NCBI RefSeq assembly: GCF_031877795.1
Contig: NC_133954.1
Coordinates: 8,709,256 to 8,773,255, forward strand
From: Strix aluco
Lineage: Eukaryota; Chordata; Aves; Strigiformes; Strigidae
Length of the DNA stretch: 64,000 nt
Direction: 5' to 3'
Shown here in pieces: positions 15,476 through 51,000 of this stretch. A program made the position numbers and the translations under genes. Within the stretch, counting starts at the first letter, position 1; each line of letters begins with the position of its first letter. The notes under the pieces are model-generated. The model did no database searches. It was given only the letters and a program-made list of their open reading frames with translations, and was not told the origin of the DNA.

Positions 15476-17680
15476 TTAGAGATCCTCCAAGCTATAGCCC
15501 CGGAATTTGAGGCTGGGGGGCACCGGGATGGCGTTGCCCCCCAGGTGCCAGCTCCACAGCGGGTGAGTTTTGGAGAGGGCCCAGGAGTTTTTGACCCCCA
15601 AGGAGGAGGCAGGACACAGGTCCCCATCTTCCCCCACGACCAGGGAGGGAGTACAGGGGAAGTTGCCCATGAGGCTGAAATTCCGAGGCGGGGTTGGCCC
15701 GGCGCTGCCGAGGCGTTTGCAGGGAGTGTTTCCCTTTTTGGCATTCCTCCTCGGAGTCTTTTGTGGCCTCCCTTTAGAGGAGCTCTGTTGCCTTTCTGCC
15801 TCAGCGCCTCTGGCAAGGCGTCTGCGCTTGGCATTCCTTTCCGAGCCATTGCCTTTCAAAGCTTTGTTTGACAAGGTGCTGGGGCTCTCTGCTCTTTTGG
15901 AGCCGGGGGATTTGAGCTCTGCAGCTTTACAGGACTCCGTCCTCCCTCCGTGGCGTAAACTTTTCCCGTCCAGGTTGAACCCTTTGGCGTAACACCACAG
16001 CTTGGATTGCCGGATCAGCCGGTCAAAGTGCTCCCGACGGGGCTCCCCCGTTTCCCCCGGGGGGGTCGGGCCGAGGCTCCCCGCCAGCTCCTGAGCCGGG
16101 GGCTGCGGGGCCGAGCCCGGGGCCGGCTCTTGGGAAGGCGCTCGCCCAGCTAAAGCTCCGCTTTGCCTCTCTGCCTGGTCACTGGGGCCTAACGAGGCTC
16201 TATTGTTCGAGGCATCTTTGTGCAAATCCTTCCCTTTGGCGCAGGGCTCCGCGTCCCCAAAGCCTCCCTCCTTTTGTTGCGGAGCCCCCCCAGGGGTGCT
16301 GCTCGGGGAGGGAGGGGGGGAGGAGGAGGAGGAGGAGGAGGAAAAGGAGGAGGAGGAGGAAGGGGAGGCCTCCTGCTTTGCGTACAGCTCCGGCAGCGGC
16401 TGGGCCCCCGAGCCCAGGGCTGGAGCCGGGCTCAAACTTTCCAAAGTTGATGCTCGCAAAGTCCTGGCCCAGAGCTGCTGCGAGAGGAAGAGGAGGTTGG
16501 GGTCGGGGCGCAGGGCTTTGCCCACGCTCGGGGGGGGCTCGGCGGGGCGCTCCTCGCCGAGGGGCTCCCGGGGGGGCTGCGGCTGGAAGCGGGGCAGAGC
16601 CGCCTGCCTGTACCGGGTGCTCTGCACCGAGTCCCCGCTGCACAGCGAGCTGCTCTCCGACTCCGAGGAGCTGCCTTCCTCGCTGCTGCACGAGCTGTCC
16701 CCTTCCTCCTCCTCCTCCTCCTCTTCCTCCTCCTCCGAGGAGTCGCTGGAGGTGGCGGGACTGGACCCCCCCAAATCCAGGCTGGAGTCCGAGTCGCTGG
16801 AGTAGCCGGCGGAGGTGCCCTGTCGCTTGGAGCCGGGGAAAACGGAGGAGCGGCCTTTCCGGGGGGCCGCGGGCCCCTTCTCGGCCGGGAAAAGCCCCTT
16901 CCCGCAGCAGGGACCCCGCTTGCGCCGGCCCGGCTGGGCGAGCGCAGCCGCCTGCGCGGCGGGATGCGCGGCCGCGGGGTGCAGCAGCGCCAGATCGCGG
17001 GGGTACCCGGCCAGGACACCGGCAAAAAACCCACCTCGGTCCCCCAAACCGCAGCTCCTCCGGCCGCGGGGGGGTTTCTCGAAGGCGGGGAAGGCCCGGT
17101 GGAAGGGCTGCGGGAGCAGCGCGGCCGGCGCCGAGCGCGGCTTGGGGAAAGCGGGGGGCAGCTTGGGGCGGCCGGGGGGCGCGGGGGAGCAGCAGCCGCC
17201 GGCTCTGCAGGGCGGCAGGAGCTGGGGCCGGGGGCAGGGGAAGAGCTCCCCCGGGGCCGGCAGCAGCAGCTGCTCCCTCCTCTTGCTCTTCCTCTTCCTC
17301 TTCCTCCTCCGGGGGCTGAGGCTCTTACAGGAGGTGCAGAGAGCCTCCAGGTCCGCCTTGGAGATGAGGGAGCATTTCACCGCGCGGGTGGGCACCGAGT
17401 TGATGGCTTTGAGGGTCCGGAGCTCTTTGAGATCGCAGCGTCGGCTCTTGATCTTTAAGGTTTCCATCTTCTTGCTGATGGTGGTCCTGGGGATATCCTT
17501 AAACAGGTCGCTGAGGACCTGGGCCAAAGCAAACATCTGGGTGCCATTGATCTGTAAGTATCCCAAGTTTATCCCTTCGATTTCTTGATAGCCAGCATGA
17601 AAATCCCCCGGCCTGGCTTCCCCATTGTAATCCATGGTGGCTGGAACAATTCCGAAGGTCCCTTCGCAGGTCAGGAACAT
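15476..17680 (-). CDS. EPOP: EPOP, Elongin BC and PRC2-associated protein, long form with N-terminal SKI/DACH domain
   Basis: Intact 734-codon ORF. Residues about 28-119 (GYQEIEGINLGYLQ, IPRTTISKKMETLKIK, CDLKELRTLKAINS) form a SKI/SNO/DAC-type domain as in the paralogue SKIDA1. A basic stretch, RRRKRKRKSKRR (124-135), looks like a nuclear localisation signal. A Ser/Glu region (295-350) contains an unbroken Glu run, and Pro/Ser-rich linker follows. Residues 551-568, HFDRLIRQSKLWCYAKGF, are the block I recognise from mammalian EPOP. The C-terminus, NFPCTPSLVVGEDGDL (673-688) and HPLWSWHLGG (706-715), is shared by EPOP and SKIDA1. Known of the family: EPOP is nuclear, joins the PRC2.1 Polycomb complex and recruits Elongin B/C at CpG-island promoters. 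Human EPOP is about half this length and lacks the DACH-like part. The first in-frame ATG (17680) follows an in-frame TGA; the ATG at 17635 has a perfect Kozak context and may be the true start. SKIDA1 is the alternative, but the 551-568 block and MLLT6 linkage favour EPOP. Confidence 0.88.
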   Translation of the reverse strand: MFLTCEGTFGIVPATMDYNGEARPGDFHAGYQEIEGINLGYLQINGTQMFALAQVLSDLFKDIPRTTISKKMETLKIKSRRCDLKELRTLKAINSVPTRAVKCSLISKADLEALCTSCKSLSPRRRKRKRKSKRREQLLLPAPGELFPCPRPQLLPPCRAGGCCSPAPPGRPKLPPAFPKPRSAPAALLPQPFHRAFPAFEKPPRGRRSCGLGDRGGFFAGVLAGYPRDLALLHPAAAHPAAQAAALAQPGRRKRGPCCGKGLFPAEKGPAAPRKGRSSVFPGSKRQGTSAGYSSDSDSSLDLGGSSPATSSDSSEEEEEEEEEEEGDSSCSSEEGSSSESESSSLCSGDSVQSTRYRQAALPRFQPQPPREPLGEERPAEPPPSVGKALRPDPNLLFLSQQLWARTLRASTLESLSPAPALGSGAQPLPELYAKQEASPSSSSSFSSSSSSSSPPPSPSSTPGGAPQQKEGGFGDAEPCAKGKDLHKDASNNRASLGPSDQAERQSGALAGRAPSQEPAPGSAPQPPAQELAGSLGPTPPGETGEPRREHFDRLIRQSKLWCYAKGFNLDGKSLRHGGRTESCKAAELKSPGSKRAESPSTLSNKALKGNGSERNAKRRRLARGAEAERQQSSSKGRPQKTPRRNAKKGNTPCKRLGSAGPTPPRNFSLMGNFPCTPSLVVGEDGDLCPASSLGVKNSWALSKTHPLWSWHLGGNAIPVPPSLKFRGYSLEDL
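15479..15688 (-). other. EPOP: Conserved EPOP/SKIDA1 C-terminal region (residues about 665-734)
   Basis: The last 70 residues carry two blocks conserved between EPOP and SKIDA1: FPCTPSLVVGEDGDL and HPLWSWHLGGNAIPVPPSLKF. From published work on EPOP, its C-terminal part contacts the PRC2 core (SUZ12), so this is the likely Polycomb-binding end. The intact block and the stop directly after LEDL show that the gene is not truncated. Confidence 0.7.
17324..17599 (-). other. EPOP: SKI/SNO/DACH-type domain of EPOP (residues about 28-119)
   Basis: This segment encodes the DACH-box-like fold shared with SKIDA1 and the SKI/SNO/DAC family. Visible family features are the LGYLQI strand, the QMFALAQVLSDLF helix, the IPRTT turn, and the CDLKELRTLKAINS helix followed by CSLISKADLEALCTSC. 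DACH-box domains bind DNA or protein partners in SKI and DACHSHUND; the role here is unknown. I see no equivalent in mammalian EPOP as I know it. Confidence 0.8.
17633..17642 (-). promoter_or_regulatory. EPOP: Optimal Kozak context at EPOP codon 16
   Basis: On the minus strand the second in-frame ATG sits in GCCACCATGG, a perfect match to the Kozak consensus. The first ATG, 45 nt upstream, has A at -3 but T at +4. If scanning favours the perfect site the protein is 719 residues, starting MDYNGEARPG. Confidence 0.6.
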
Positions 17681-38955: not shown

Positions 38956-38967
38956 ATGGAAGTATGA
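38956..38967 (+). promoter_or_regulatory. MLLT6: Three-codon uORF whose stop overlaps the MLLT6 start codon
   Basis: An upstream ATG at 38956 reads ATG GAA GTA TGA. Its TGA shares two bases with the MLLT6 ATG at 38964 (ATGA). The upstream ATG has C at -3 and G at +4, a weaker context than the main start. Such overlaps can permit termination-reinitiation or dampen translation; the role here is inferred. Confidence 0.55.
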
Positions 38968-39072
38968 AGGAGATGGTGGGAGGCTGCTGTGTCTGTTCTG
39001 ATGAGCGGGGCTGGGCGGAGAACCCGCTGGTGTACTGCGACGGGCACGGCTGCAATGTGGCGGTGCACCAAG
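38964..39072 (+). CDS. MLLT6: MLLT6 coding exon 1
   Basis: Encodes MKEMVGGCCVC through VAVHQ (36 residues plus one base), the first half of PHD finger 1 with ligands C8, C11, C25, C30 and H35. Start chosen because MKEMVGGCC is the known MLLT6 N-terminus; A at -3. Donor AAG|GTAAGC. The CpG-island context fits a first exon. Confidence 0.95.
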
Positions 39073-48000: not shown

Positions 48001-51000
48001 GCAGTGTGATCCTCAAGTTAACAGAGCCTCAGCCTTGAGTCCCCATCCGAGAGCAGGGACTAGGACACAGTAAAGATGTTTTTCTCTGCAGGATTTATGT
48101 GCTCATCGTTGATCTTCTCAGCCTCTGGGGCTGTGAAGTACTGGGGATTCTGATTTCAGTTGTCAGAGCTTGCAGCTGTCAATGCTACTGGCTGTATAGA
48201 TCAAACTTAATTTTTCTCTTTCTTTTTCAGAAAGGCTTCTGCACCTGCCTGCCACTCACCTTAATACCCAAAGAGTTAGATTAGGCAAGGAGGTCTTTAT
48301 TCTGATAGATCCCATATTTAGAGAAGTGCTAAATCCAGGTTATTTTGTAGAAGCATCTGCTAGAGCAGGTCATAAGTGCCAAGAGTCTTAGTGCAATAGC
48401 ACAAGTATCATGTTGGGGGATTGTTTTATCATAACATAGCATCTTCTTCCAAACATGTTACTGCGTGGTTTGGTCAGGTCTGTGTAGACAGGCATAAGAA
48501 GTGTTACAGCTGTGTCACTGTACAGAATTATACAGCTGTATGATTCTGTAACCATGGAGTTTGGTTCTGCCTGCCCAGGTGACTCCATCCTAACTGGAGC
48601 TAAATCCTTCCAGCGCAGTAGCCATACTGGTCATGGATCAGCCCCCAAAGGCTCCTGACTTTCAAACTTTCTCAGTTCTGTCCTGACCAGATGGAATTTC
48701 AACTTACACATCTGATTTGGGAAGCGTCTTGGTGGATTTAGATTTTAATCTAACTTGGCTTGCTGAAAAAGAGCCTTCTTTAGCCGTTGATAACAGCCAA
48801 TAAAGGGAGCTTTGTTTCCAGTGGCGTGGGACTACACGTCAAACCTGTCCCATCAGCATCATTTACTGCTTGGATGCTTTTCTTGGGTTTGGTTAGGTCT
48901 TCAACTCCAGGCCTCAAGTCCTGAGGGGGTGCTTTTAAGAACGATGAGCGTTGTACACTTTTCCCAAAGAAATCTCTGCTTTCCCATTTAATCTGGAGGT
49001 GGTATCCGTCTATCTTTCACCCACAAAGGACTTGATTCCTAACCAAGTTACAACAGGCAGTATTTCAAATCTAACATCTAACTTAAGTTGGCTCCCTTCC
49101 TACACTCTCTTCCTTCTCTCCCTCCCATGCTTGTCTGCAGCCCTGCCTAAGTTTAAGACTCTCTTGGGTTGCTCCATGTGAATCTCCTCTCTCTGTCTTG
49201 TTTGCTTCCCCAGGGTGGGCCCACGTTGTCTGTGCTTTGTACATCCCAGAGGTGCAGTTTGCCAATGTGCTCACCATGGAGCCAATTGTCCTGCAGTATG
49301 TACCCCACGACCGCTTCAACAAGGTAACGCCACCTCTTTCTAGTGCTGCCCCAAAGCGCGCTTGCCCCACCTTGGCTTTTTGGGGTCATCTTATGCTACC
49401 ACATCTCCTGTCCAACTTATTTTAGTTTCCAGTTACTCAGATTCCTTTAAAAATAACTAACAAAGTAAATCTGTGTTCTTGCAAATAACTTCTTGGTCCT
49501 CCATTTCTCTCTTCTCCAACTCCCTGCAACTTGAGCAATCTCCGCCTTGGAGTTGCGTGTTGGTGACTCCACGTTTTGATCTGACACAGTTGTTATTTGG
49601 GGAGAAAAAGAAGATGTGTGAGCTTCGTGCATGCCACTGAGAAATAACCCAGAGCTGTTGTCGTAGGAGGGAGATGACTGGACACAGAGTTATGAGTTCT
49701 CAAAGGCTTTGCCTCCTGGTGAACAGTGAGAGTGAAGTAGATGTTTTGTCTGCCTCTTTGAGTGAGCACTTTTCCTTTTTTTTGCAGACCTGCTACATCT
49801 GTGAAGAGCAGGGCAGAGAGAGCAAAGCAGCCTCGGGAGCGTGCATGGCCTGTAACCGACACGGCTGCCGGCAAGCTTTCCATGTCACCTGGTGAGTTCC
49901 CCACGGCATCACCCCAAGAATAGCCCCAGCTATTGGTTTTGCTGCTGTGGCTTTGAGGCGGCACTAACTGGGTGGTGTGGGGAGTTGGGCTGATCACCCT
50001 GGGTTGGTTTTGTGCAAGGGGTATCTCATCCTTGTTCAGTTTGTGAGGGGAACTTCCCCAGGAAGGCTGAGGTTTCACCAGCGAGCCTTCCCTGCTGAGA
50101 ACGAAGGCTGGGGATTTCCCTAAGACTATGTGGAATCCAAGAAGAGAAGAGGTGACTCACAACCCAGGAATGTTCCTTCTCCAGCAGAGCACATGCAAAA
50201 GTATCATCTAGATGATGTGATTTGAAGGGCTGATACCCTCACGTACCCTCGCAGCCTGAAAACAACATTGCCTATTAGCAGAGCAGGGAGATTCCCAGCT
50301 TTACATGGATTCTTTGCCCATGACATGTCTTTTGTTGGAATTGTTACTGGTCTCCCAGGCCTCCCTTAAGAAAAACAAAAATCGCAAGACAATGTGGTAG
50401 AAAAGTACTGACCATTTTGAAGAGCTTAATATGAACTAAAAATAGTCTGAACTTTTTTCCCTTCCTTGCATACCATTTGCCAAGCAGAACAGGAAACTTC
50501 AAGACCCTGCCTGGGTACCCTGAACTATTCTTTGCCCTTTGATGGGATATGTGGTCTGGCTGTACAATTTGCTTTATCCTCCTTCTAATTGCATGTATTT
50601 CAGTGCCCAGATGGCCGGCCTCTTATGTGAAGAGGAAGTGCTGGAAGTCGACAATGTCAAATATTGTGGCTACTGCAAGTACCACTTCAATAAAATGGTG
50701 AGTTTCTTCATCCCTGCAATGGAATTATTTTGTCACATAAAAGGCATTGTCTTCCTCCTAGACTGTATCTGTGCTCAGAGCAGTAAGAAATGCCACAAAC
50801 ACATAAACGAGGTCTGCAGCCTGCTTCCCTTTCCGGCCAGAGTCACTTAGGAATAAAGATTAATTTATATTTTTCGTTTCTGTAGCATCTTTAAACCCAT
50901 TTTCAAAAGTAGGTGTTGAATGCTTCCCATCTGTTTTGGCTTCCCTGACCCACTCTGTGTGGCTGAAAGAGAAGTCCCAAGAAAGGAGAGCAGCCGTGAT

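Follow-up and report, generated by a model that had tools for sequence, protein, structure and literature searches.

A SKI/DACH-domain gene of Strix aluco: probable EPOP counterpart and probable ancient block-duplicate of SKIDA1

The window analysed here, 64,000 nucleotides of DNA from Strix aluco, contains a long open reading frame whose product joins an N-terminal SKI/SNO/DACH homology domain to a C-terminal region common to EPOP and SKIDA1. The question raised by the locus is which of these two genes it corresponds to. SKIDA1-like genes, encoding a SKI/SNO/DAC domain and a conserved tail, have been described in some fish and in the majority of amphibians, reptiles and birds (Fischer et al. 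2022; PMC8864842), so that the existence of a SKI/DACH-bearing gene of this kind in birds and reptiles is already in print. The same account presents EPOP as mammal-specific, with only the tail in common and the N-terminal part proposed as replaced. A zebrafish review raises the possibility of orthology between skida1l and EPOP (PMC9916924). Among passages of the open-licence literature on these genes, we found no gene-order argument equating the SKIDA1-like gene with EPOP. Print leaves the origin of EPOP open, and the neighbours reported here bear on that origin. We consider it highly probable that the gene is the sauropsid counterpart of EPOP and a block-duplicate of SKIDA1, its product most likely being a putative accessory subunit of PRC2.1.

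Reading frame and parts of the protein

The frame at 15476-17680 on the reverse strand is intact, running uninterrupted for 734 codons in a window that contains zero N letters. The open frame that encloses it extends to 759 codons, whereas the longest of three frames had a median of 206 and a maximum of 389 codons when this stretch was simulated 300 times with a first-order Markov model; the ORF first noted here is confirmed as real. Of the 734-residue product then proposed, the frame stands but the start at Met1 is the less likely one: the in-frame ATG at 17635 has the context GCCACCATGG, compared with GCAAAATGT at 17680, so translation probably starts at Met16 and would give a product of about 719 residues. 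The features of the protein, numbered by residues of the full ORF, are as follows.

15476..17635, reverse strand: probable coding sequence of about 719 residues, counted from Met16 (ATG contexts, stop-free frame)
17324..17584, reverse strand: SKI/SNO/DACH homology domain, residues 33-119 (PF02437; PDB chains of SKI, SKI-like and Dachshund; likeness to the bird's own SKIDA1)
17276..17323, reverse strand: basic stretch SLSPRRRKRKRKSKRR directly after the SKI/DACH domain, residues 120-135 (sequence)
16631..16798, reverse strand: serine/glutamate-rich acidic stretch, residues 295-350 (sequence; similar stretch in own SKIDA1)
15977..16030, reverse strand: block HFDRLIRQSKLWCYAKGF, here called the HFDRL block, residues 551-568 (sequence)
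15485..15682, reverse strand: C-terminal region common to EPOP and SKIDA1, residues 667-732 (match to 9xzi_D, 36/65 identical)

A profile check for a DACH-type fold, suggested along with the original prediction, finds Ski_Sno_DHD (PF02437) at residues 33-119 (E 4.4e-15), and the same domain matches PDB chains of SKI (1sbx), SKI-like (3eq5) and Dachshund (1l8r). At the other end, the Pfam family PF15223, named EPOP, is found at residues 625-729 (E 2.1e-23) and the EPOP chain 9xzi_D matches residues 667-732 (E 3.5e-18). These matches, together with the stop-free ORF, bear out the predicted union of a SKI/DACH domain and a PRC2-facing tail in one frame. The protein accordingly has both the N-terminal SKI/SNO/DAC domain and, as judged on sequence only, the conserved C-terminal PRC2-binding region of the SKIDA1-like group. 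NCBIfam, whose families are bacterial and archaeal, gave no match. Since all parts lie in one stop-free frame, as they do in the bird's own SKIDA1 (also a single open frame, of 892 codons), it is unlikely that the N-terminal domain and the rest of the ORF belong to separate transcripts.

In the mechanism that we propose, the C-terminal tail would dock on SUZ12, as homology to EPOP suggests; the mammalian EPOP tail is described as both necessary and sufficient for interaction with PRC2 (PMC4860827). The SKI/DACH domain and the strongly basic stretch behind it may contact DNA or a partner protein, given the fold family and the charge, and this contact would choose where PRC2 acts. The net charge of the domain is +6, as in own SKIDA1, compared with +3 in Dachshund, 0 in SKIL and -3 in SKI, and residues 120-140 carry a net charge of +10. 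Both values agree with DNA contact, but are no proof of it.

An isolated hydrophobic stretch, LLFLSQQLWARTLRASTLES (residues 396-415; window 16436-16495, reverse strand), stands amid the low-complexity middle of the protein. It has no match in the PDB up to E 10 and may represent a short motif for binding.

Two loci and their neighbours

The window protein has five matches in the bird's own genome (1.41 Gb, 202 contigs): the window gene itself on contig C24, SKIDA1 in two parts on C1, and two weak matches on C22 and C9 that we read as SKI and SKIL. The full SKIDA1 lies at C1:124242100-124244685 on the forward strand, in a block of its own, and the window gene is therefore separate from it, as had been predicted and as befits a member of the SKIDA1-like group. 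That the window gene is nevertheless just SKIDA1, or was copied from it recently, and not a counterpart of EPOP is very improbable. The two proteins do have the same domain layout, and 60/109 residues are identical over the SKI/DACH part (residues 25-133 of the window ORF). Against this, two loci exist, each with its own neighbours, those of the window gene being the neighbours of EPOP (see below), and the profile scores differ: own SKIDA1 scores 573.9 bits against PF15223, matching profile positions 37-414 of 414, whereas the window gene scores 83.9 bits over positions 295-414 only, most of the long SKIDA1-type C-terminal half being unmatched in it.

The breadth and strength of the SKIDA1 match mean that PF15223, its EPOP name notwithstanding, amounts to a profile of SKIDA1's C-terminal half; 9xzi_D and the window gene match just its last 60-120 positions. 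The Pfam label therefore misleads about family identity, and we rejected it as proof that the window gene is EPOP, own SKIDA1 fitting the profile far better. When the tail alone is compared with PF15223, own SKIDA1 scores 156.8 bits, the window gene 88.5 and EPOP 79.6, so that by tail scores the window gene and EPOP are roughly equidistant from the SKIDA1 profile.

Plain identity in the tail was likewise rejected as proof of kinship with EPOP, being near-equal across all three pairs: 36/65 for the window gene and EPOP, 35/63 for SKIDA1 and EPOP, and 37/63 for the window gene and SKIDA1. In these comparisons EPOP is represented by 9xzi_D, a chain for which the species is not given. Among 64 aligned tail columns, 27 are alike in all three proteins; 10 are exclusive to the window gene and EPOP (one of them a shared gap), 5 to SKIDA1 and EPOP, and 10 to the window gene and SKIDA1. 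In an unrooted comparison, these exclusive columns lean weakly toward pairing the window gene with EPOP. The case for an EPOP counterpart is carried by gene order rather than by tail residues.

Two exons of the nearest recognised neighbour lie within the window.

38964..39071, forward strand: PHD exon of the neighbour, assigned to MLLT6 (AF17) (PDB AF-10, E 4.4e-21)
50608..50700, forward strand: later PHD-region exon of the same MLLT6-assigned neighbour (PDB AF-10, E 2.4e-10)

On C24, the window gene (8724734, reverse strand) is followed by the first of these AF10-family exons (8748219, forward) and, further along, by PCGF-type RING and RAWUL domains (8804178-8808541, reverse), a PSMB motif marking a PSMB3-type exon (8817155, forward) and a PIP5K-family gene (8825349-8829322, reverse). 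A PIP4K2-type gene is thus about 100 kb from the window gene, with PCGF- and PSMB3-type genes between. The block around SKIDA1 on C1 runs in parallel: a PIP5K-family gene (123715580-123746968, forward), a RAWUL domain (123858893, reverse), an AF10-family exon (124223949, reverse) and SKIDA1 (forward). The order given for C24 is that of the recognised neighbours, and PCGF2, BMI1, PSMB3, PIP4K2A/B, MLLT6, MLLT10 and SRCIN1 are names that we assigned to family-level matches.

The AF10-family exon at 38964..39071 has one other copy in the genome, 97% identical and on C1, so that its two genomic matches (2/2) lie beside the window gene and beside SKIDA1. The window gene on C24 and SKIDA1 on C1 each stand head to head with the MLLT-type gene beside them, at a distance of about 21 kb and 18 kb respectively. 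Other families in the blocks are more widely spread, with 17 PIP5K matches on 6 contigs and 9 RAWUL matches on 7, so that these have further copies beyond the two blocks.

On the other side of the window gene, an exon at C24:8657518-8658123 (reverse strand) is presumably that of SRCIN1, which lies on the corresponding side of EPOP in a horse gene list (see below); Pfam did not name its family. Scanned for motifs, the window itself gave no hit; in a scan of C24, three motifs matched, once each, and a CISD3-type motif was not found there. Searches for extra pairs of block members gave 13 genomic matches to PF00880, all on C6, and 15 to PF13832, in neither case on C24 or near SKIDA1; for a SRCIN1/KIAA1217 pair, the single PF03915 (AIP3) match, on C1, fell short of the family cut-off, and C24 had no match.

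In horse, a gene list that we take as map order reads PIP4K2B, PSMB3, PCGF2, CISD3, MLLT6, EPOP, SRCIN1 (PMC11238448). Pig and cattle lists share many of these genes but arrange them differently (PMC10734178, PMC12075139). With single gene names assigned as above, the window gene lies next to MLLT6 in the PIP4K2B-PSMB3-PCGF2-MLLT6 block, the position of EPOP. Because its neighbours match those around EPOP in the horse list and the SKIDA1 block runs parallel, the simplest reading makes the window gene the counterpart of mammalian EPOP by position and a duplicate of SKIDA1 from an old block duplication, and the original naming of it as a sauropsid EPOP agrees with the neighbour families that are seen directly on C24. 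The parallel blocks show the pattern of an old block duplication, from which we infer that the duplication was part of early vertebrate genome doubling. The results support the view that EPOP and the SKIDA1-like gene are one locus, in a block duplicated with its MLLT-, PCGF- and PIP4K2-type genes. A single locus would offer a test case of how a PRC2 accessory subunit traded a domain that may bind DNA or a partner for a connection to Elongin.

The route to mammalian EPOP

If the window gene is the counterpart of EPOP, the SKI/DACH domain would have been lost in the mammalian line. This had been put forward as the simplest reading, and the joined sauropsid ORF and the gene order are both in keeping with it. 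By a modest degree we favour the view that EPOP is a shortened descendant, in which the HFDRL block and the tail were retained, the SKI/DACH half disappeared and an Elongin BC-box was gained later. Mammalian EPOP would then have gone from a domain-guided to an Elongin-linked PRC2 subunit.

Much here depends on the HFDRL block. Mammalian EPOP may also carry HFDRLIRQSKLWCYAKGF, which the original prediction called EPOP-specific, and, if it does, this would contradict the printed statement that only the C-terminus is common. Own SKIDA1 offers no significant counterpart to the block (23% of 300 shuffles do as well), and neither Pfam nor the PDB matches it up to E 10. The latter result is uninformative, because PF15223 is SKIDA1-based, an EPOP N-terminus also drew a blank in Pfam, and just the two ends of EPOP were found in the PDB. 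Short letter strings of the block or of the BC-box were not found in the open-licence literature, and viral and prokaryote contigs, searched for vertebrate relatives, gave pattern matches of which none was confirmed as a relative. Between human and opossum, EPOP is described as having three regions of raised homology, one of them central (Liefke and Shi 2015; PMC4860827).

A somewhat less likely course, and one also compatible with an EPOP counterpart, is the published view that EPOP occupies the same locus with its N-terminus and middle taken from unrelated sequence, so that only the tail is common. Replacement of the N-terminal part is stated as possible in section 9 of PMC8864842. It is also favoured by the 17 printed letters of the EPOP BC-box, which match the window protein no better than chance, 98% of 200 shuffles reaching the observed best; on the same result we rejected the idea that the BC-box arose from part of the window protein. 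Should mammalian EPOP carry the HFDRL block, this would be a second common part and would speak against wholesale replacement.

The original prediction also had the window protein bridging Elongin BC and PRC2, and this part finds no backing, the strict BC-box that serves EPOP for Elongin BC being absent: scans with the BC-box consensus gave 0 strict matches in the window protein and 0 in own SKIDA1. It is most doubtful that a degenerate BC-box lets the protein bind Elongin BC, with the bridge predating mammals. TLRASTLESL at residue 407 does fit the consensus with threonine replacing cysteine, but a relaxed pattern gives only 3 matches where 1.86 are expected (500 shuffles, 29% of which reach 3). 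The BC-box is, moreover, called mammal-specific in print (PMC8864842). Its later gain by a shortened EPOP remains the reading that we prefer.

Relation to known genes

Three known genes invite comparison. SKIDA1 (C10orf140) is like the window gene in having a SKI/DACH domain, a serine-rich acidic stretch, the C-terminal region and a single open frame. It differs in its locus, in the segment corresponding to PF15223 positions 37-294, which is unmatched in the window gene, and in having no significant counterpart of the HFDRL block.

The SKIDA1-like gene (skida1l) resembles the window gene in its SKI/SNO/DAC domain, in its conserved C-terminal region and in being a second gene beside SKIDA1. The likeness is one of description (PMC8864842; PMC9916924, note to Table 1), not drawn letter by letter, and the passages of these two sources on the SKIDA1-like gene mention neither gene order nor the HFDRL block.

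Mammalian EPOP (C17orf96) differs at the N-terminus, where print gives it a BC-box and the window protein has a SKI/DACH domain and no strict BC-box. What it has in common with the window gene is the C-terminal region and, by the horse list, the neighbours from MLLT6 to PIP4K2B.
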